DNA from: an uncultured candidate division Zixibacteria bacterium
GTDB taxonomy: Bacteria; Zixibacteria; MSB-5A5; GN15; FEB-12
Length of the DNA stretch: 14,407 bases
NCBI GenBank assembly: GCA_913009765.1
Contig: CAJVYT010000061.1
Location: forward strand, 1 to 14,407
Direction of reading: 5' to 3'
Shown here: positions 2,823 to 14,323 of the stretch, one piece after another
How positions within the stretch are numbered: the first letter of the stretch is position 1
How the letters are laid out: the number at the start of each line of letters is the position of its first letter
Translations under genes and position numbers: made by a program
Notes under the pieces: generated by a model
The model's database searches: none
The model's input: only the letters and a program-made list of their open reading frames with translations
Told to the model about the DNA's origin: nothing

Positions 2823-3938
2823 TTACTTAAAATAATTAGCAACTCCGCCAAATCGTTGAACAGACCCGATATCGGGACTACTATTTCCTTCTATAAGTAC
2901 AGGGCCTTTATCAGAAAGTGCAATATCCCAACCAGCAACAGAAATTAATGGAAAAGTCATTGCGGCACTGCATGCTAAGTCGAGTATTGGATCTATTGCA
3001 AATTTCTCATTACCAAAGATTGCGCCCGTTTCGGGATGTTCAAAATACTCAGTAAGTTCTACATCTATGGCACGCGTTGATAATTGGCCGGACGATATAT
3101 CAACATTGACAAGAAGACCTCCCGCATGTAAATTATCTACCTCGCACTCACTTCGCCCAAATCGTACGACACAACGAATTAACTGTGGCGACTTATTCCG
3201 AAGTATTGTGGTGATTTTAAAAGTGTTTATTGAACCAGGAAATATTCGTTCAAGCTGATGTGTTTGTTCGACCTCCTCCTGAACTATCCAATCTGCCCCA
3301 GCTAGTTCATGTAATAGGGAAAGCGTGAGCTTGTTTGTTCCATAATAGAAATGCTTCTTCAATCGTCGGAATACTAGAATTCCTTGTCCGCCGCTTCCGC
3401 ACATCGCTGGTTTAAAATATACTTTTTCTGTTGTAATTTCTGCGAGTACGTTATAGAGTTGAGTTTCATCAGCGACAATAATACCGCAGTCTGTGATAAT
3501 CCTCTCATTACGAATAATAAAGATAGTTTTTGGCAGTGGTAGCCCTGCACTACTTGCTATCGCAGCAAATACTATTTTATCGTCTAATTGGTATGAATCT
3601 AAGCGCCATCGCGGTAAGATTCTGTAGTAAAAAACAGTCTCTGGGATGTATTGTAGTACATTTTCATATGAGACATGTCTCGAGTAGAGCACATGACGAA
3701 AATAGTGAAATGGTATGCATCGCCACTTTGCTAACAATATTGCCATCTCACATATACAGCGAAAGATAGTCTTCCTTTTGCGTTCTCCGCAAAATTTAGG
3801 CCAATATACATCTATGAACCGCCGGGTCTGATAACATGTCCATTTTGGCCAAAGAAGAGGTGGGACTGCAAACCATATTGCCAATTTCTCTGCCTTTCGC
3901 ATCATTGCATTCCACGAATAACCGAGATTTATTTTCAT
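2823..3938 (-). CDS. ATP-grasp ligase, sugar-transfer-associated type
   Basis: This 371-residue protein fits the ATP-grasp fold. Residues 117-140 (LDDKIVFAAIASSAGLPLPK) resemble the family's entry helix and hinge. VYFKPAMCGSGGQGILVF (173-190) holds the ATP-contacting lysine and glycine-rich loop, IVQEEVEQ (218-225) the hinge glutamates, and LIEGNSSPDIG (348-358) the metal-binding Glu/Asn pair. The arrangement with INTFKITTILRN and VDNLHAGGLLVNVD is the pattern of the 'sugar-transfer associated ATP-grasp' family often found in polysaccharide loci. Such enzymes join a carboxylate (via acyl phosphate) to an amine, thiol or hydroxyl. The N-terminal ~100 residues, rich in Trp/Tyr/Arg, are not assignable. 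Its ATG overlaps the racemase stop (ATGA), so translation is coupled. The substrate is unknown; a D-amino acid from the neighbouring racemase is a natural guess. Confidence 0.8.
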   Translation of the reverse strand: MKINLGYSWNAMMRKAEKLAIWFAVPPLLWPKWTCYQTRRFIDVYWPKFCGERKRKTIFRCICEMAILLAKWRCIPFHYFRHVLYSRHVSYENVLQYIPETVFYYRILPRWRLDSYQLDDKIVFAAIASSAGLPLPKTIFIIRNERIITDCGIIVADETQLYNVLAEITTEKVYFKPAMCGSGGQGILVFRRLKKHFYYGTNKLTLSLLHELAGADWIVQEEVEQTHQLERIFPGSINTFKITTILRNKSPQLIRCVVRFGRSECEVDNLHAGGLLVNVDISSGQLSTRAIDVELTEYFEHPETGAIFGNEKFAIDPILDLACSAAMTFPLISVAGWDIALSDKGPVLIEGNSSPDIGSVQRFGGVANYFK

Positions 3939-4753
3939 CTAAGCATAATACGCTCTACTTCAAAGCGCCTCCCCAACAATTTTTCTGCAATAATGTTTAT
4001 CTCGGGAGACCACACATGCAAATCCCCCGAAGCATACACACGTAATTGTGATTGGCTAGTTGCTTTTGTTTCAGGCATTCTAGCGGATGAAATTAGAGTC
4101 TGTGCAACATATTCGCTAGGGTCAAGAAATATAGCATGATGACCGAAAATATTTCTAAGCATCGGCTTAATAATAGAGAAGCAAGTGCAGCCAAGCACCA
4201 CTATTTCTGCATTTGGGTCTAGTTGACCTAGTATTTCATTGCGAGCCGCTTCTACTTCAAATGCATTATCCCATAGTCCGTACGCTACAAGCCTCTCGGT
4301 CTTAGTGCCAACTATGTGATAAACTTCGGAAGCACCCCCCTCCAAAAGCGCACGTTCGTACTCGCCTGATTCAATAGTAAATTGGGTTCCAAAAAGTGAG
4401 ATTGCGTGCCCATTGATTACAGGTGCATTTTCTTCAATGCACATAATCAGTCCGTCAAACATTGTTGTAAATGGAGTTTGCCATTTCAAGGAGAGTTCGC
4501 GGCGTATGGGTTCCACAGCCGCAGCAGCCGTGTTGCATGCAATTACCAGTGCATCAAGTTGCATATCTGGTCCTGCAAAGTATCTGAGCCACTCTTCCAC
4601 GGTTTCCTGTATTTGGGCACGGTTTCTAAGACCGAAGGGGTTTCGTTCACCATCCGCAAGATACATCAACCTGAAATTGGTGGTGCAATCCATAATCTCA
4701 CGCACCACACACATTCCACCAGCGCAGGAATCAGCAACAAGTATATTCTTCAT
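3935..4753 (-). CDS. Asp/Glu racemase family protein (MurI-like)
   Basis: This 272-residue protein follows the glutamate racemase pattern from end to end: DSCAGGM near residue 8 (MurI DSGvGG), YLADGERNPFG (31-41, the NxPYG region), VIACNTAAAAV (70-80) with first catalytic cysteine C73, and VVLGCTCF (185-192) with second cysteine C189. Cofactor-independent racemases use this cysteine pair to interconvert L- and D-Glu or Asp. Two residues are atypical: DSC for DSG at the N terminus, and Cys191 where MurI has the helper histidine (GCTHF). Altered substrate choice is therefore possible. Expression signals are good (GAGGG six bases before ATG) and it begins two bases after the radical SAM stop. 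Its setting beside ligase genes suggests it supplies a D-amino acid to a product other than peptidoglycan; a housekeeping murI role cannot be excluded. Confidence 0.82.
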   Translation of the reverse strand: MKNILVADSCAGGMCVVREIMDCTTNFRLMYLADGERNPFGLRNRAQIQETVEEWLRYFAGPDMQLDALVIACNTAAAAVEPIRRELSLKWQTPFTTMFDGLIMCIEENAPVINGHAISLFGTQFTIESGEYERALLEGGASEVYHIVGTKTERLVAYGLWDNAFEVEAARNEILGQLDPNAEIVVLGCTCFSIIKPMLRNIFGHHAIFLDPSEYVAQTLISSARMPETKATSQSQLRVYASGDLHVWSPEINIIAEKLLGRRFEVERIMLR

Positions 4754-4755
4754 AG

Positions 4756-5835
4756 CTAGCCCTCATCAACAAAATACTTCCAACAACTAGGGTCAGAACT
4801 TACCAAAGCATCCAAATCAGATAGCCCCTTAGCCTTGGCCATCGTAAATGATAGGCCTCGACAACCAACACAAATGTGCCCATACTCGCATTGTGAACAA
4901 CTGCCAGTCAAATACTCTTCAATATATCGCGATCGCACAAAAAATTCTGTCTTAAGAATCTCATTAAGACTCATGTCCTTGATATTTGCTATGCGGATAT
5001 GCATGGAGGAACAAGGCCGAGCCCAACCATTCACGTCAATATAGACATTGTACATACATTGGAAACATCCTACTGAAAGCAAAGGGGTATACGGCAAGTA
5101 GGATATGCCGTATTTATCAATGTCTAGTCTTAGGAGTTGCATCTTCAAATGTTGGTAGTCTTCAAGATTTGGAAGAAGGTTTATACCAGCACGTCCGTTT
5201 GGAATAAGCATCTCTAGGTTAGGAAATAAGTGGTTTTCCCTACAGTATTCCCAAACGTGAGGAATATCATCTATGTTAAGTTTGGTAGCAACCATTGAAG
5301 CGCCAGCGCGTAAAGAGGTGCCCTGCTCTAGAAAACCAATGTTACCTAAAATCTCTATTGCCGAAATAATGTTCAAAGCAACACCATCCTTTCCCGCAAG
5401 AGTATCTTGTGTTGCTGGATTTAATGAATCCATTTTGACAATTACACTGGCCCCTATTTCATATAAAAACGCCGCTAATCCTTTAGACATATTCTGAGCA
5501 TTTGTAAATACAACTGGAATTAATCCAATCTGCGAAACATACTGTACTAAAGTTTGAAAACCCTCATAAATAGTCGGCTCACCTCCACCGATAATGATAA
5601 CAGAACGCGCTCCCAGCTCTGATGCTTGGCTTACAATGTCTTTTAGTGTTTCTAAACTAGGTCCATTTTTTGAGACTGCTCCACTAGTATTACAACAGTA
5701 GATACAATTCAAGTCACACTTCAGACTCGTTTCAATGCGTATTGATAGTAACTTCCCTGCATCTCTACATAATCGAGCTTCCAAGGACGAATAGACATAG
5801 CCAGCTAGGATAGGGGCAGAATTTATTGTTTTCAT
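4756..5835 (-). CDS. Radical SAM/SPASM domain protein
   Basis: This is a radical SAM enzyme of about 359 residues from the ATG at 5835; a GTG at 5841 would add two. With that longer numbering, KCDLNCIYC (41-49) is the CxxxCxxC motif for the SAM-binding 4Fe-4S cluster, and IIGGGEPT (83-90) is the GGE motif that contacts SAM. The C-terminal third is a SPASM region: C259 and C262, C277 in a CX14C stretch with NGWARPC, C315/C318/C324/C327, and C353, enough for auxiliary Fe-S clusters. SPASM proteins commonly modify ribosomal peptides (thioether, C-C or epimerised residues) or act as sulfatase maturases and small-molecule enzymes. It is the first confident gene of the operon, so its substrate probably sets the pathway. 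I cannot tell peptide from sugar substrates. A possible short peptide lies directly upstream. Confidence 0.85.
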   Translation of the reverse strand: MKTINSAPILAGYVYSSLEARLCRDAGKLLSIRIETSLKCDLNCIYCCNTSGAVSKNGPSLETLKDIVSQASELGARSVIIIGGGEPTIYEGFQTLVQYVSQIGLIPVVFTNAQNMSKGLAAFLYEIGASVIVKMDSLNPATQDTLAGKDGVALNIISAIEILGNIGFLEQGTSLRAGASMVATKLNIDDIPHVWEYCRENHLFPNLEMLIPNGRAGINLLPNLEDYQHLKMQLLRLDIDKYGISYLPYTPLLSVGCFQCMYNVYIDVNGWARPCSSMHIRIANIKDMSLNEILKTEFFVRSRYIEEYLTGSCSQCEYGHICVGCRGLSFTMAKAKGLSDLDALVSSDPSCWKYFVDEG

Positions 5836-5852
5836 TCGCACGGCTTTCTTTT

Positions 5853-6131: not shown

Positions 6132-7055
6132 ATGAAAAACAATGTGGAAGAAATTATAAGGTCTTATCTGGGAATGAAGCATAACCTTGTCGGAATCAAG
6201 TTTTTCCACGAGGATATCCAGGGGGAGAGCCTGCCAAAATCCGCGCGATTCTGCCCTTTCAATCCCCAGATATTGAGTGGAAATACCTATGTTATTAAAG
6301 AAGATGACCTTGACTGCCCGACAGGTGAACTTGTCATGGGTCTGAGGCAGTCAAAATACGCCCATATAGAGCCGAGCATTAAAGAAAAGTTCAAGGCAGT
6401 CCGTATCGGTCCTATTGACGATGCTGACGTGGTTCTTTTTTTGGTCAACGCAGACCAGGCTATGAACCTCTCCATTTTACTTGTGGGGATCTCGGCTGAA
6501 TTTAAGGGTGAGCTGGCTATCTGCGGGGAAGCAGTAGCAAAGGTGTATCTGGACCAGAAGCCGAACATAAGCATGTTATGCAACGGGGCACGTATGTTCG
6601 GCGGGTTTGCAAAAAATGATATGGTTGTCGGCATGCCTTACTCCATAATGATTGACCTTGCTGAAAAAATAAAGTCGCTCACAAAATCCGGAGGTGCCCT
6701 CTGTGGCTGTCAGGTATCGGATATACCGGCAGACATAATAAGAAGTTTTGAGGAGATAGGATTCAAGAAATATTCGGATTACTTTTCAGGCAGGATCAGG
6801 GGACAGAACGTCAAGATCTACCTGAACAAAGATTCTGAGGGCAGGTTTAACCTGATAACCATATATCTCCCGGTCAAGGGAGAGTTAAAGACAAAAGTTG
6901 AAGAGCCTTTCAAAACAAAGAAGAGAGGGGATTGGACAGATGTCTATGCAATCCTGAACCCCAAGACAGTAGGGATAAGTCTTTATTCCTCGGAAAATCT
7001 GAAAGAGGCATTGACACTGCTTACTGAAAAGGCAATGGGGTTGGATAATGGCTAA
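6132..7055 (+). CDS. DUF169 family protein, cysteine-rich
   Basis: This 307-residue protein fits the uncharacterised DUF169 (COG2043) family, common in anaerobes and methanogens. Visible landmarks are ARFCPF (C41), LDCPTGELVMGL (C62), ELAICGEA (C131), SMLCNGARMFGGF (C150) and GALCGCQVSD (C191, C193). The six cysteines in otherwise ordinary sequence suggest metal, Fe-S or persulfide chemistry; this is inference, as no biochemical role is established that I know of. The C-terminal ~90 residues (from about 215) form a tail of beta-type sequence (VKIYLNK, LITIYLPVKG, VGISLYSS). It is the first gene of the operon, and its stop lies 8 bases inside the SepCysS gene, so the two are translationally coupled. 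Together this makes it a reasonable candidate accessory or sulfur-delivery protein for tRNA-dependent cysteine formation. Confidence 0.75.
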   Translation: MKNNVEEIIRSYLGMKHNLVGIKFFHEDIQGESLPKSARFCPFNPQILSGNTYVIKEDDLDCPTGELVMGLRQSKYAHIEPSIKEKFKAVRIGPIDDADVVLFLVNADQAMNLSILLVGISAEFKGELAICGEAVAKVYLDQKPNISMLCNGARMFGGFAKNDMVVGMPYSIMIDLAEKIKSLTKSGGALCGCQVSDIPADIIRSFEEIGFKKYSDYFSGRIRGQNVKIYLNKDSEGRFNLITIYLPVKGELKTKVEEPFKTKKRGDWTDVYAILNPKTVGISLYSSENLKEALTLLTEKAMGLDNG

Positions 7056-8439
7056 GATGACCAAATACGAAAAATTTTTAGCGTCAGGCGACAATGAATA
7101 CAAGGATTTTCTGGTAGTAAGCCCTCTAATGAGAGGAGGCATAATACCTCCGGAAATCAGGCTCAAGTTACAGAACTGGATGGATGTAGGTTATATCAAC
7201 TGCACCACATGTACGCCGGGCCGTTCTTCTTTTCTCGATAATCCGCCAATTAAAGAATTTTTGCAAAATGTGGCTGAATTCTTTGGAGGAGACTCAGCAG
7301 AGCATACGTTTGGATGCCGAGCAGCGCAGTTCAGTGTAATGAAGGCTGTAACAGACCAGGTTAAGAGTGGCGAATTTGCCAATATGATAGTGACCGATTC
7401 CTTAAGCCACTACAGCACCAATATAGCTGCAGAGATGAATAGCCTTGAGGTGACTGAAGTACCGAATTCCGGTTACCCTGAATACCTTCTGGATCCGGAG
7501 CATTACGATGAGAAAATAGAGGCTGTCAAGGAAAAGACAGGCAAACTCCCTGCACTTGTCGTTGTGACCCATGCGGATCCATATCATGGAAATATCGCGC
7601 CCATAAAGGAAATTGGCGAGATTTGCAGCCGGCATGAAGTCCCTTATATGATTAATGCGGCTTATACTGCAGGGGTACTGCCCATAAATATGCGGGAGAT
7701 GAAGGCGGATTTCCTGACGGTATCTGCCCATAAATCAATGGCAAGCATCGCGCCTCTGGGTTTTCTTGTGACGAACTTCGTTTGGCAGAAGACGGTCTTT
7801 GCCATGTCACAGGACAGGCCCGATTGGTCCGGCAGGGTTTTTGGCAAAAAAATACCCAATATTTTCGGCTGCAGTATCGGAGGACTGCCCCTTATCAGCA
7901 GTATGTTCTCTTTTCCATATGTTAAGGAGAGGGTATCAAGGTGGAATGAGCAGAAGGAAAAGATCAACAGCTTTATCAGTGAGATGGAGAACTTTCAGGA
8001 TGTTATGATGCTGGGGCAGCGGCCTCATGAGCATCATCTCCTGGAGTTTGAAACCCCTTTTATGGACGCGATTGCTGAAGCACACAGCAAAAAGGGATAC
8101 TTCCTTTTCAATGAGCTGAAAAAGCGCAGGATTGTCGGAATACACGCGGGAAAGACAAAAAACATAAAGCTGTCGATATATGATATGACGGACGATGAAA
8201 TAGGAAAGTTCCTGGAATCTTTTTCCGACATTGTAAAACATGGCAATAAAAAGAGAATAGATAAACTGGCAGAACAGAAGGGGAAAAAGGAAACTCTTGA
8301 AAAAGAAATAGAAGTGATTGAAGAGAAAAGGGCTGCTCATACAAAAGACAATGTTCCTTCCGAGGATGTAACGGAATATGATAAAGCCAAGAAGGATCTT
8401 GAAGATACAAAAAATAAGATTGGGAAGTTAAAGTATTAA
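7048..8439 (+). CDS. pscS: Sep-tRNA:Cys-tRNA synthase (SepCysS)
   Basis: SepCysS is a PLP enzyme that converts phosphoseryl-tRNA-Cys to cysteinyl-tRNA-Cys with a sulfur donor. Diagnostic features are the N-terminal SPLMRGGIIPPE segment (archaeal IQRGGVLT region), NCTTCTPGR (C52, C55), the THADPYHGN region, NAAYTAGVLP (203-212), the Schiff-base lysine in VSAHKSMAS (K229), and FGCSIGG (C275), which aligns with the third conserved cysteine. The three cysteines correspond to those implicated in persulfide transfer in archaeal SepCysS. At 463 residues it exceeds the usual ~370-400. From about residue 395 it has a charged Lys/Glu-rich tail that reads as a coiled coil. Shortened homologues of the scaffold SepCysE are known fused to SepCysS in some lineages, so the tail may dock SepRS or tRNA. 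The start at 7048 overlaps DUF169; M4 is an alternative. Confidence 0.93.
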   Translation: MAKMTKYEKFLASGDNEYKDFLVVSPLMRGGIIPPEIRLKLQNWMDVGYINCTTCTPGRSSFLDNPPIKEFLQNVAEFFGGDSAEHTFGCRAAQFSVMKAVTDQVKSGEFANMIVTDSLSHYSTNIAAEMNSLEVTEVPNSGYPEYLLDPEHYDEKIEAVKEKTGKLPALVVVTHADPYHGNIAPIKEIGEICSRHEVPYMINAAYTAGVLPINMREMKADFLTVSAHKSMASIAPLGFLVTNFVWQKTVFAMSQDRPDWSGRVFGKKIPNIFGCSIGGLPLISSMFSFPYVKERVSRWNEQKEKINSFISEMENFQDVMMLGQRPHEHHLLEFETPFMDAIAEAHSKKGYFLFNELKKRRIVGIHAGKTKNIKLSIYDMTDDEIGKFLESFSDIVKHGNKKRIDKLAEQKGKKETLEKEIEVIEEKRAAHTKDNVPSEDVTEYDKAKKDLEDTKNKIGKLKY

Positions 8440-8463: not shown

Positions 8464-8730
8464 ATGGAAAAACCTGTTATAGAACTCTTTTATTCCCCAC
8501 TATGTCCTACCTGCCCGGAGGCAAAGAATATTGCCCGTGAGGTTATTGAGACAAAAGACGTTTCTTATGAAGAGATAAATATCCTCGCTGACGATGGCAT
8601 GGAGAGAAGCAAGGCATATAATATTAAAGGCGTACCGTATATTGTCATAAACGGCAAAGTACACATATCCGGCGTTCCTTCTCAAGAGAGACTTGAGAAC
8701 GCAATAAGTGATTCAATGGAGAATAATTAA
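8464..8730 (+). CDS. Thioredoxin/glutaredoxin-like protein with CPTC motif
   Basis: This 88-residue single-domain thioredoxin-fold protein has a CPTC active site at residues 14-17 (FYSPLCPTCPEA) and the cis-proline segment KGVPYIVINGK (P58) before the last strands. Its size matches the small archaeal/anaerobe glutaredoxin-like redoxins, not full thioredoxin. It lies between SepCysS and SepRS, and its stop overlaps the SepRS start (TAATG). SepCysS catalysis passes through disulfide and persulfide states that need a reductant, so this redoxin is a sensible partner, either to reduce SepCysS cysteines or to release sulfide. That role is inferred from position. No signal peptide is present, so it should be cytoplasmic. 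Confidence 0.85.
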   Translation: MEKPVIELFYSPLCPTCPEAKNIAREVIETKDVSYEEINILADDGMERSKAYNIKGVPYIVINGKVHISGVPSQERLENAISDSMENN

Positions 8731-10646
8731 TGCGGCTTCTCTTGATTCATGCGGATAGTTTTTCATTTAGGGCAACCGAGAGGGCCCCACACACACCATC
8801 TACAGGCACAGAAGACGAAAGCGCCTCTGTATCGGATTGCCTCGTTGTTTTTACCGCTGTTGAGAAGGGCGATGCTGATAATGCCGTAGAGATCGTTAAC
8901 AATGCAAAAGCAGAGATCAATAAACTCTGCGAAGAGCTAAAAGCAGAAAGGGTAGTTCTGTATCCGTATACTCATCTGTCAAGTAATCTCTCCACTCCTC
9001 TTCAAGCTATTGAGGTTCTGAAGAAACTCAAAGAGGCTCTGTCGCAGGTTAACGTAACAGCAGCACCTTTTGGATGGTACAAGGCGTTTGATATTAAGTG
9101 CAAGGGGCACCCCCGCAGCGAATCACTTAGAGAGATCACGTCTTTTAGTGTGGTAAAGGAGAGGGCAAAGAAGTCTCCGGGCAAAGCGCATCCTGTTGCA
9201 AGCTTGAACCAGCGTTTCCGTGAGATTTTCCTAAACCTTGGCTTTGACGAGATCGTTAACCCTTCAATTATTCAGGATACGGAGATTTATAAGCAGTACG
9301 GACCTGAGGCCCCGCTTATATTGGACAGGGTATTTTATCTGGCAGGGCTTCCAAGGCCTGACATCGGGATCAGTCAGTCAGCGATTGAGCAGATAAAAGC
9401 GCTTGTCCCCGGCTTTGACAAAAAAGAGACCTTTGAGCAGATATTCAGGGATTACAAGAAGGGTGAGATCGAGAGCGATGACTTTATTGAAGAGCTGGTC
9501 AGACGCACCGGCATTGATGAAGATATAGCGATCAGGATCATTGATGAAGTCTTTCCGGGACTCAAGGGTCTGACACCGGAGCCTTACAATAAGACTCTGC
9601 GTTCTCATATGACATCGCTCTGGTTTCCGCTGCTTGAAAATGCTCAGAAGCACAGGCCCGTACCTCTCAGGCTCTTTTCAATAGGCCCGCGTTTCCGTAA
9701 GGAGCAGAGAGAAGATTCTAGCCACCTCTTTGAGAGCACAAGCGCATCGATCGTTATTATGGATGATAGCCTTACCCTTGAGGACGGCAAAAAGATCACG
9801 GTTGAAATCCTTAAGGGTCTTGGCATTGAAGAGTGCGAGTTCAGGCTCAAAGAGGTGACCAGTAATTATTATGAGCACGGGACCGATACAGAGGTCTTTG
9901 TAAAGATAGGCGGCCAGGATATGGAGATCGCAAATATAGGTTTCTATTCCAAAAAGGCCACTGCAAATTACAATATTAAGCATCATGTCTTTAATCTCGG
10001 GTTCGGTGTCGAGAGGATAGCGATGGCATATGAAAAGGCGGTTGATATACGTGCTTTTGTATACCCGCTGCTGTTTGAGCCAGAGATTCCGACTGATGAA
10101 GAGATCGCCGCAAGCCTGCGGCCGGAAAAAGCGCCATCCACAGAAGAGGGTAAAACAATCGCTGAAAAGCTGATTAGGACTGCGCTTGATAATAAAGACA
10201 AGCCAGGGCCTGTTGAGTTCCTTGCCTATGAAGGTTCTCTTTTAAATGCTGGGATAAGGGTTTTTGTTTACAACTGGGATGACGGAAAACCTATGCTCAG
10301 CACGGCTGCTTTGAACTCGGTCATTGTCGAGGACGGCAGCATACATGGCCTTCCTGCAGGTCATCCCGAACTTCCGGACAAGTTCAAGGAAATTGTGGAT
10401 AAAGGGATCAACACAAACATGACATACCTTGACCTTATAATGACTGGTATCGCTGCTGAACTTGAGACTGCTGTTAAAGATGGGCAAAAAGAATATGACA
10501 AAAAATTCAAGATGATTAGAAATCCTACCCAGGTTAACCTGCACATTCCTTCCTATATTTATAATTTCATGACCGCGCATAAGAAAAAAAATAAGATAAT
10601 AGGGCCGGTCTTTGCCGGGGTAAGGGCAGAGATTTCAAAAAAATGA
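8730..10646 (+). CDS. sepS: O-phosphoseryl-tRNA synthetase (SepRS) with N-terminal ThrRS-type editing domain
   Basis: SepRS is a class II synthetase that attaches O-phosphoserine to tRNA-Cys. The catalytic part begins near residue 150. KQYGPEAPLILDRVFYLAG (188-206) and LRSHMTS (290-296) are typical of SepRS. RFRKEQREDSSHLF (321-334) is motif 2, and FNLGFGVERIAM (421-432) is motif 3. The C-terminal ~180 residues are the anticodon-binding part. Residues 1-~140 are something else: MRLLLIHADSFSF, LVVFTAVEKGD, VVLYPYTHLSSNLS and FGWYKAFDIKCKGHPRSES reproduce the archaeal threonyl-tRNA synthetase editing domain (DTD-like fold). Its key residues H82, Y117/K118, C124 and E131 are kept, so it may be active. 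At 638 residues the protein is about 100 longer than archaeal SepRS. A GGAG eight bases before the ATG supports the start, so the fusion is not a mis-called extension. A mis-serylated or D-aminoacyl tRNA is the likely editing target (inference). Confidence 0.95.
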   Translation: MRLLLIHADSFSFRATERAPHTPSTGTEDESASVSDCLVVFTAVEKGDADNAVEIVNNAKAEINKLCEELKAERVVLYPYTHLSSNLSTPLQAIEVLKKLKEALSQVNVTAAPFGWYKAFDIKCKGHPRSESLREITSFSVVKERAKKSPGKAHPVASLNQRFREIFLNLGFDEIVNPSIIQDTEIYKQYGPEAPLILDRVFYLAGLPRPDIGISQSAIEQIKALVPGFDKKETFEQIFRDYKKGEIESDDFIEELVRRTGIDEDIAIRIIDEVFPGLKGLTPEPYNKTLRSHMTSLWFPLLENAQKHRPVPLRLFSIGPRFRKEQREDSSHLFESTSASIVIMDDSLTLEDGKKITVEILKGLGIEECEFRLKEVTSNYYEHGTDTEVFVKIGGQDMEIANIGFYSKKATANYNIKHHVFNLGFGVERIAMAYEKAVDIRAFVYPLLFEPEIPTDEEIAASLRPEKAPSTEEGKTIAEKLIRTALDNKDKPGPVEFLAYEGSLLNAGIRVFVYNWDDGKPMLSTAALNSVIVEDGSIHGLPAGHPELPDKFKEIVDKGINTNMTYLDLIMTGIAAELETAVKDGQKEYDKKFKMIRNPTQVNLHIPSYIYNFMTAHKKKNKIIGPVFAGVRAEISKK

Positions 10647-11746: not shown

Positions 11747-11761
11747 ATGAAAGGTAATAAA

Positions 11762-13102
11762 ATGATTGATATTTCCGCTTTATTTAAGAATCAAATAAAG
11801 GAATCTTGTGGCTGCACCGAGCCTGTTGTTATAGGGTTGGCAACTTCGATAGCATATAATGCCCTAAAGGGAGAATTGCCCTCAGAAATTATTGTTAAAG
11901 AGAAATTGAAGAAGCAGCCATCAGAAATAAAAAAGATCAAAATATCCCCAGAAGAAATAGAAAAAATCACAATTAAGGTTGACAGGGATGTTTATAGGAA
12001 TGCTTTGCACGTTGGGATTCCTGGGACAGGAGAATTAAGCGGCATTAAATTGGCCGTGGCGCAAGGGGTTTTCTGCGATCCAAACAAAGAATTGAACCTG
12101 TTTACCAGTTTTGGCGGAGAGAAAAGATCAGTTGACAAATTAATTAATGAAGACCGGATAGAAATTGCTCCAAAGTATGATGAGAATGATATCTATATTG
12201 AAGCAATCGTAGAAGCAAAAAATCATAATGCTATTTGCCGGATACAACACACCCACTCAAATATCACATATGTCAAAAGAGATGACGAATTGTTCTATGA
12301 AAACAATGAAATAGAAGAAGATAGTAACATAAATAAATTGGGAGAAGTGGTTACACTTGAAGAAATTTTTGTTTTAGCTGAACAAATACCTGAAGAAGCT
12401 AAAAAGCTTATCAAGGGAGCTATCCAAATGAACAGAGCCGCTGTTGAATTTGCGGTGGAAAAGCCTCTGAAATTTGCTCCCACAATCAAAAAAATGGTGC
12501 AAGAAGGAAAGTTAAGTGATGGCAGTATTGCTCATTCCAAGTATTTTACTATGGCTACCATAGAAGCACGTATGGCCGGGTATGATATAGCTGTAATGAC
12601 TTGTGCCGGGGCAGGCAACCTAGGTTTGATGGTTACATTGCCGATTATAGCAGTGGCAGAAAAAGAAAGTAAAGAAGATAAAGAGAAGCTGATCAGGGCT
12701 GTGGGGTTAGCTAACTTGGTTACAATTTATGCCACTGCACATTCAGGATATCTTTCTGCAGTTTGTGGATGTGCCATTAAGGCAGGTTTTGGTGCAGTTG
12801 CCGGGATTACTTATTATCTGGGAGGCGACTGCAAAAAGATTGGAGCAGCAATTAATAACTTTGCGGCAACGATTGCCGGAATGATTTGCGACGGTGCAAA
12901 TATTGGCTGCGCCTTAAAAGCATCAAGGGCAGTTGGAGCGGCGATAGAGAGTGCGGAACTGGCTTTGAATAGTGAAGAAATGCCTCCGCAAGGCACTGTT
13001 GATAAAGACCCATTAAAAACCATACGAAATACCGGGAAACTTTCAGAAGCTATGATTGAAACTGATAAAAAGATGATTGAAATATACGAGAACAAACAAT
13101 GA
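11762..13102 (+). CDS. cyuA: L-cysteine desulfidase family protein (CyuA/UPF0597)
   Basis: This protein belongs to the UPF0597/serine-dehydratase-alpha-like family that includes the [4Fe-4S] L-cysteine desulfidase of Methanocaldococcus and E. coli CyuA (YhaM). These split cysteine to sulfide, ammonia and pyruvate. From the ATG at 11762 it has 446 residues. ESCGCTEPVVIGLA (14-27) carries the substrate-binding CTEP cysteine (C18). GIPGTGELSG (85-94) and TCAGAGNLGLMV (280-291) are family glycine loops. C335/C337 (SAVCGCAIKAGFGA), C376 and C383 (ICDGANIGCALK) match the spacing of the cluster ligands. I chose the start with AAGG seven bases upstream; an ATG at 11747 would add five residues. It could feed sulfide to SepCysS or remove excess cysteine. 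It precedes coaB by 10 bases, so they are probably cotranscribed. Confidence 0.85.
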   Translation: MIDISALFKNQIKESCGCTEPVVIGLATSIAYNALKGELPSEIIVKEKLKKQPSEIKKIKISPEEIEKITIKVDRDVYRNALHVGIPGTGELSGIKLAVAQGVFCDPNKELNLFTSFGGEKRSVDKLINEDRIEIAPKYDENDIYIEAIVEAKNHNAICRIQHTHSNITYVKRDDELFYENNEIEEDSNINKLGEVVTLEEIFVLAEQIPEEAKKLIKGAIQMNRAAVEFAVEKPLKFAPTIKKMVQEGKLSDGSIAHSKYFTMATIEARMAGYDIAVMTCAGAGNLGLMVTLPIIAVAEKESKEDKEKLIRAVGLANLVTIYATAHSGYLSAVCGCAIKAGFGAVAGITYYLGGDCKKIGAAINNFAATIAGMICDGANIGCALKASRAVGAAIESAELALNSEEMPPQGTVDKDPLKTIRNTGKLSEAMIETDKKMIEIYENKQ

Positions 13103-13879: not shown

Positions 13880-13954
13880 GGCGACGTGGCCGAGTGGTTT
13901 AGGCAGAGGTCTGCAAAACCTCCTACAGCGGTTCGATTCCGCTCGTCGCCTCCA
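13880..13954 (+). tRNA. tRNA-Cys (anticodon GCA), CCA encoded
   Basis: A complete cloverleaf of 75 nt: acceptor GGCGACG/CGTCGCC, D-stem GCC/GGC, anticodon stem GAGGT/ACCTC around CTGCAAA (anticodon GCA), T-stem AGCGG/CCGCT with loop TTCGATT, discriminator U73 and encoded CCA. U73 and GCA are the main cysteine identity elements. Position 37 is A, as in typical bacterial tRNA-Cys, whereas methanogen tRNA-Cys has m1G37, reported to help SepRS. It is the expected substrate of the SepRS/SepCysS pair encoded upstream. Whether a conventional CysRS also exists in this genome cannot be seen. Confidence 0.95.
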
Positions 13955-14056: not shown

Positions 14057-14323
14057 ATGAATAAGAATACTATTACAGATATCATTTACATTAGGGATAT
14101 TATTGACAAGTCTTTAGAACTTCAGAATTTAAATTCGACTGAGGTTTCAAGCCTTATAGCCTTGGATGATAAAGAATTGTGGCCTGAAGTTTTTGATACA
14201 GCCCGCAGAGTTAAAGAAAAAGTCTATGGTAAGAATATAGGTAATAGTTCAGCCCCTTTCCGCAAGTTAACAGTTCAAAAAAAGGGTTCTTGCATTCCAG
14301 ATCATTCATATGCTATTGTTTAG
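14057..14323 (+). pseudogene. HydG/ThiH-like radical SAM protein, truncated N terminus
   Basis: Residues ~10-61 match the N-terminal helical region of HydG/ThiH-type tyrosine-cleaving radical SAM enzymes: RDIIDKSLELQNLNSTEV, DDKELWPEVFDTA and RVKEKVYGKNI, which in HydG is followed by IVxFAPLY and then the CxxxCxxC cluster motif. Here the similarity ends at codon 61 (about 14239). The frame continues with unrelated residues to a stop at 14321-14323, so no radical SAM core is present. HydG makes the CO/CN ligands for the [FeFe]-hydrogenase H-cluster; ThiH makes the thiazole precursor dehydroglycine. The sequence after about 14239 probably belongs to the inserted element whose gene starts at 14327. 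Whether the rest of the gene resumes beyond the element is outside the window. Confidence 0.6.

Follow-up and report, generated by a model that had tools for sequence, protein, structure and literature searches.

Two-step aminoacylation deliberately makes a misloaded tRNA, and how that intermediate is kept out of protein is the question at stake at this locus. The whole stretch of DNA analyzed here (14,407 nucleotides; hereafter the window) encodes a SepRS, whose core is predicted to charge tRNA-Cys with phosphoserine, in one chain with an apparent serine editor. This built-in editor changes slowly in the branch of the window and is missing in others, which makes the question accessible to deacylation assays. 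The relevant features of the window are as follows.

6132–7055 (+): DUF169 protein, first gene of the operon (PF02596, E 2.6e-26)
7048–8439 (+): SepCysS, second enzyme of the pathway (NF006810, 391.6 bits, cut-off 301)
8464–8730 (+): thioredoxin-like (Trx) protein (PF13192, E 1.4e-13)
8730–9137 (+): ThrRS-type serine editing domain (ED), residues 1–136 of the fusion (PF08915, match to 4rrf, superposition of the model)
9138–9179 (+): linker of 14 residues (137–150)
9180–10643 (+): SepRS core, residues 151–638 (TIGR00470, 2du5; Sep pocket including Asn-X-Gly kept)
13880–13954 (+): tRNA-Cys (GCA) with U73, A37 and an encoded CCA (ARAGORN; RF00005, 64.1 bits)

The region 8730–10646 (+) is a single unbroken ORF of 638 amino acids. 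A sequence-only reading had taken it for a complete SepRS fused in frame behind an editing domain of the archaeal ThrRS type, and the ED motifs that it named are found in the translated ORF. In Pfam, PF08915 matches residues 1–136 over its full profile (1–137 of 137; E 9.9e-44; 149.2 bits against a cut-off of 30.2) and is followed in the same protein by PF01409. The NCBIfam model TIGR00470 (sepS) matches residues 144–635 over positions 37–532 of 533 with 443 bits, likewise over its cut-off (380.65), which bears out the predicted joining of the two domains. PF18006, a C-terminal model that many relatives carry, is absent among the Pfam matches of the window up to E 1; the C-terminal region of SepRS nonetheless aligns to TIGR00470 and 2du5. 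In a search of solved structures, residues 1–137 matched the ThrRS editing domain of M. jannaschii (4rrf, E 8.3e-32), residues 1–136 that of P. abyssi (1y2q, E 6.7e-29) and residues 149–635 the A. fulgidus SepRS (2du5, E 6.5e-101), while the M. jannaschii SepRS (2du7) also matched the SepRS half. An AlphaFold2 model of the fusion was built from a 41-row alignment (mean pLDDT 81.8; pTM 0.46, which is too low for reading the placement of the ED relative to SepRS). Using Foldseek, the ED of this model superposed on the four listed chains of 4rrf with TMt of 0.93–0.95 and rmsd of 1.1–1.2 and on 1y2q with TMt of 0.93. The linker, whose residues 143–146 have pLDDT below 50 in the model, is 10–16 residues long across 41 fusions.

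These fusions came from a protein search with 2073 matches. Among the best 120, PF08915 and PF01409 occur together in 41 clusters including the window, and the 40 others are 44–82% identical to it. A locus scan of one genome per species (84,980 species, two peptide patterns; 80 of 220 relatives kept) found an ED encoded at seven of the 80 kept loci (L001–L006 and L010, L006 ending at the contig edge). The closest named relative among these 80 is that of Nitrospirae HyVt-268 (L001; 83% identity). The same architecture in 40 other clusters and on the HyVt-268 contig rules out an error of assembly or frame. Wide presence of SepRS in the phylum of HyVt-268 was not borne out: one of 395 genomes drawn from it, HyVt-268 itself, has SepRS over the cut-off. 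Weaker matches to the SepRS model (E up to 0.001) occur in 365 of the 395, most of which are probably PheRS kin. The fusion may extend to a further lineage: P0121 (245 aa) reads as an ED and then the start of a SepRS, and this partial record comes from a 3.4-Mb contig labeled Deltaproteobacteria.

The sequence-only reading knew of no described SepRS with such a module. This was mistaken, as Mukai et al. report it in the available text of both their 2017 (PMC5424206) and 2022 (PMC8762117) papers. The former describes a SepRS with a ThrRS-type ED in ADurb.Bin236 and proposes that some SepRS edit serine, since dephosphorylated Sep-tRNA-Cys is Ser-tRNA-Cys. The latter, in its available part, gives three fused SepRS, in Desantisbacteria-like bacteria and Nitrospirae HyVt-268, models the fusion, notes that the fused enzymes have no N-terminal extension yet calls them SepRS, and asks which amino acid gets misloaded. 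Full-text searches, covering few subscription journals and preprints and some papers in part, returned no later work on ED-SepRS and no assay. The HyVt-268 protein has the same architecture and gene order as the window (DUF169, SepCysS, Trx, ED-SepRS), whereas the tRNA-Cys lying about 3 kb downstream in the window falls beyond the end of the L001 contig. The ADurb.Bin236 protein (L002; 46% identity to the window) has the same two domains in the same order but differs in a Gly at position 124, in a SepCysS on another contig and in a ThrRS-like gene with its own ED. The Desantisbacteria-like proteins, as far as the available text describes them, also share the two domains and their order. With its N-terminal ED, the lack of the canonical extension and a bacterial two-step cysteine system, the window is of the fusion type of Mukai et al. 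and thus already of a published type; new here are the wider family, the extension replacement that marks a clade and the exchange of SepCysS for ED. The window is taken as bacterial from its relatedness to HyVt-268 and from the A37 of its tRNA-Cys.

By alignment, His82, Tyr117, Lys118 and Glu131 of the window correspond to His83, Tyr120, Lys121 and Glu134 of P. abyssi ThrRS; fold and pocket residues are like those of the archaeal ThrRS EDs (4rrf, 1y2q), from which the ED of the window differs in being joined to SepRS. In the 41-row alignment, His82 is present in all 40 fusions that cover the position, Lys118 in 40/41 and Tyr117 in 39/41, and Glu131 is kept in 36/41 (Val in four, among them P0022 and P0039, and His in one); in these counts, P0036 looks degenerate at the ED pocket, and P0006 and P0034 lack part of their N-terminus. 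The earlier reading had listed His, Lys, Cys and Glu as kept catalytic positions. His82, Lys118 and Glu131 are indeed mostly kept, but Cys124 occurs in only 13/41 fusions and is ruled out as a catalytic position. The label "catalytic" was also overstated, as the available text of PMC4491819 gives catalysis in three archaeal EDs to the 2'-OH of A76 of the tRNA, with Lys121 positioning the water. In the same text, Tyr120 and Glu134 are dispensable in P. abyssi while a change of the Glu kills the M. jannaschii enzyme; ThrRS EDs hydrolyze Ser-tRNA-Thr and spare Thr-tRNA-Thr, and all three EDs hydrolyze Gly-tRNA-Gly more actively than Ser-tRNA-Thr. The kept pocket residues thus speak for ED activity, but they alone do not identify the substrate.

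The ED is also the most constrained part of the operon in the comparison of the window with HyVt-268. In this one sequence pair, dN/dS is 0.051 for the ED, the lowest of the five operon pieces, against 0.076 for DUF169, 0.100 for SepCysS, 0.133 for the SepRS core and 0.136 for Trx. Therefore, as judged from these ratios, selection holds the ED, at least in the branch of the window and HyVt-268. An ED tree from a quick search (67 rows, among them 28 of the 41 fusions and 35 other EDs after dereplication) gave two groups of fused EDs in the best trees. A single clade of all fused EDs is compatible with the data (p-AU 0.357) in a test set of 53 rows, obtained by removing 14 mostly long or short rows. 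Borrowing of the ED from the archaeal-type ThrRS of the same genome was rejected, as in G002, G006 and G010 the ED of ThrRS groups with other ThrRS EDs and not with the fusions. G010 has three EDs, one in ED-SepRS, one on a ThrRS-like gene and one encoded by a short gene of its own at L102:1501–1914 (−), about 20 kb from the ED-SepRS, in which the pocket is altered (GWFNRL, HPLSR).

The SepRS half keeps its own pocket. T295 and S340, which we take from the 2du5 alignment to be Sep pocket positions together with S338, are present in 41/41 fusions; S338 is present in 33/41 and is Ser in the window. The Asn-X-Gly motif that the available text of PMC8762117 places in the Sep pocket corresponds to N422–G424, and both N422 and G424 are found in 41/41 fusions. 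The tRNA partner fits as well: U73, an ED determinant in the available part of PMC8762117, is present together with A37 in the tRNA-Cys of the window and in 11 tRNA-Cys genes of six of ten related genomes (G002, G003, G006, G007, G009 and G010; at L151 the ARAGORN tRNA ends are off by one base). One search pattern found no tRNA-Cys gene in G001, G004, G005 and G008, which may reflect the pattern or incomplete bins. G002, G003 and G006, which have both CysRS and SepRS, each carry tRNA-Cys (GCA) of two kinds, all with U73 and A37; the two kinds may be divided between the two synthetases.

The canonical N-terminal extension of SepRS is absent in the window; the ED stands there, and the TIGR00470 match begins at model position 37. 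The 41 fusions and 47 non-fused proteins, taken from the best 120 of the 2073 matches, make up a SepRS tree of 88 rows, in which the fusions all fall within one branch of 61 rows (SH-aLRT 99), and a careful tree of 54 rows (29 fused) supports the fusion branch with 100/99. In the 88-row tree, all 27 rows outside the branch have an extension of 34–42 residues, and the 20 non-fused rows inside it are without the canonical one: 18 begin at most 12 residues from the core and two carry SepCysS. Among these 18, P0058 is a partial record amid fusions whose front was probably lost to assembly, and the short contigs of P0045 and P0067 (1.5 and 1.8 kb) may cut off their starts; bare SepRS genes with intact upstream sequence are found at L007, L008 and L009. 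The simplest reading of these trees is that the ED took the place of the extension at the base of the clade and was then lost several times. The ED may instead have been gained several times. The number of gain or loss changes is eight on the 88-row tree, with P0058 counted, and seven on the 54-row tree without it.

The ten genomes G001–G010 behind loci L001–L010 are bins of untold completeness. CysRS is over the cut-off in six (G001, G002, G003, G006, G009 and G010) and PF08915 in seven (G001–G006 and G010). In the three without ED, SepRS belongs to the fusion clade but is bare, and G009 alone of these has CysRS, so the function of the ED is dispensable in some. SepCysS is over the cut-off in seven; G001 (363.1 bits) and G007 (319.1 bits) fall below 365.25, and the profile search gave no SepCysS match in G008. 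The cysK gene is over the cut-off in G002, G003, G006 and G010 and cysE in G001, G002, G003 and G006, while G004, G005, G007 and G008 have none of CysRS, cysK and cysE over the cut-off. Of the seven ED genomes, the five with CysRS all keep Glu131, and the two without it (G004 and G005) have Val there. CysRS is thus present in 5/5 genomes with Glu131 and in 1/5 with Val131 or no ED (Fisher p 0.048), a link spotted post hoc among ten bins, several of them close kin and one (G006) with an ED that is a contig-edge fragment; it is only a hint that Glu131 retention goes with CysRS. In G001 (HyVt-268), CysE and CysRS form one ORF of 705 aa at L081:1486–3603 (−), and our literature search found no paper on such a fusion.

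We propose that the ED probably clears Ser-tRNA-Cys in cis, whereby we infer its activity, its substrate, its action in cis and the source of the serine. SepRS would load phosphoserine on tRNA-Cys, and SepCysS would convert it to Cys-tRNA-Cys. Ser-tRNA-Cys would arise by early loss of the phosphate or by misloading of serine, and serine would then be placed at cysteine codons. The ED of the fusion would take the flexible CCA end and exclude an amino acid with a gamma-methyl group, and the 2'-OH of A76 would direct a water so that serine is released. The fusion may also keep the ED, whose relatives attack Gly-tRNA-Gly, off other U73 tRNAs. This proposal, the same as that in the available text of Mukai et al., is supported by sequence, fold and conservation: the ED sequence and structure, retention of His82, Lys118 and Glu131, the lowest dN/dS, the SepCysS operon and U73 point to it, as do Asn-X-Gly in 41/41 fusions and, in the available texts, the specificity of ThrRS EDs (PMC4491819) and archaeal ED genes beside SepCysS (PMC5424206). 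The latter, standalone tRNA-Thr-ED genes beside archaeal clade VII SepCysS, tie the same domain to the two-step cysteine pathway, but as separate genes they would act in trans, whereas the ED of the window is fused. Against clearance stand Val in four and His in one of the 41 fusions at Glu131, and the ED genomes without CysRS have Val131, although Ser-tRNA-Cys should matter there. The ED thus seems altered or absent where SepRS appears to be the sole route to Cys-tRNA, which clearance leaves unexplained in this small, post hoc sample.

The substitutions at Glu131 would suit an ED that merely stands in for the N-terminal extension in tRNA binding or assembly and hydrolyzes little, as would the lack of the canonical extension in the SepRS of the fusion clade. 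We regard this as improbable: the bare SepRS of the same clade lack both ED and extension, His82 and Lys118 are present in nearly all fusions, and the ED evolves more slowly than the synthetase between the window and HyVt-268. A general editor in trans, acting on U73 tRNAs loaded with small amino acids (e.g., on Ser-tRNA-Thr) and merely carried by SepRS, would draw on the family's editing of Ser-tRNA-Thr (PMC4491819) and on the separate trans-editing forms (PMC5424206) in the available texts. However, all seven ED genomes own a ThrRS or a ThrRS-like gene with an ED. In three (G001, G004 and G005), ThrRS scores above the TIGR00418 cut-off and PF08915 occurs in SepRS only; in the other four (G002, G003, G006 and G010), ThrRS-like genes carry a PF08915 domain of their own and match TIGR00418 over almost its full length, though under the cut-off (349–356 bits against 383.65). 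The need for Ser-tRNA-Thr editing would be met by these genes, and ED-SepRS shares an operon with SepCysS in the window and HyVt-268, which leaves a general editor in trans little likelihood.

Equally slight is the chance that free cysteine is the product of the pathway, set free from Cys-tRNA-Cys by the ED. As cysteine has no gamma-methyl group, by which the pocket rejects, Cys-tRNA could fit; known EDs also hydrolyze Gly-tRNA-Gly and are thus not serine-specific (PMC4491819, available part), and all five Glu131 genomes have CysRS, so that translation need not rely on SepRS. However, those genomes mostly have tRNA-independent synthesis (cysK and cysE each over the cut-off in 4/5), and G004, G005, G007 and G008, most in need of release, have Val131 or no ED. 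Recognition of D-aminoacyl-tRNA, also raised in the sequence-only reading, is an analogy for which the shared DTD-like fold is the one argument.

Two proteins of the clade carry another module in the place of the ED. P0041 (903 aa; two member sequences) and P0043 (911 aa; five) have an N-terminal SepCysS with SepRS behind it (PF05889 and PF01409). We came upon no such chains in the available parts of PMC8762117, PMC5424206, PMC9499178, PMC5688128 and PMC8516115. Their SepCysS halves are sisters (100/100). Their SepRS halves are both placed among the fusions, in different branches, and sisterhood of these halves is rejected (p-AU 4.2e-6, for a pair chosen after the tree was seen), so that the chains may stem from one fusion event or from two. 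As the SepRS parts lie in different fusion branches, the swap of SepCysS for ED may have happened twice. A tentative and rather unlikely generalization is that the N-terminus of this clade carries whichever module prevents Sep-tRNA-Cys from becoming Ser-tRNA-Cys: a fused SepCysS would never release the intermediate, and an ED would instead clear the serine. If this were true, single-chain SepCysS-SepRS would leak less Sep-tRNA-Cys than the split enzymes, without need of an editor.

Within the operon of the window, the stop codon of the Trx gene (8728–8730) shares one base with the start codon of the fusion, and SepCysS scores 365.1 bits against TIGR02539, marginally below the cut-off of 365.25. 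Near the operon, 11747–13102 (+) encodes an SDH_alpha (PF03313) protein, presumably an enzyme of the L-cysteine desulfidase type; the L001 contig ends before the corresponding region. On the other side, an asparagine-synthase-like gene at 1273–2807 (−) consists of two overlapping ORFs in different frames, with PF00733 on the downstream piece only, and is probably interrupted. The cluster at 2823–5841 (−), with ATP-grasp (PF14397), Asp/Glu racemase-like and radical SAM/SPASM genes, is perhaps a peptide- or sugar-modifying pathway. Finally, an ORF of 88 aa at 14057–14323 (+) matches positions 29–83 only of the HydG model (E 3.1e-5, below the cut-off) and then diverges, and it may be a remnant.
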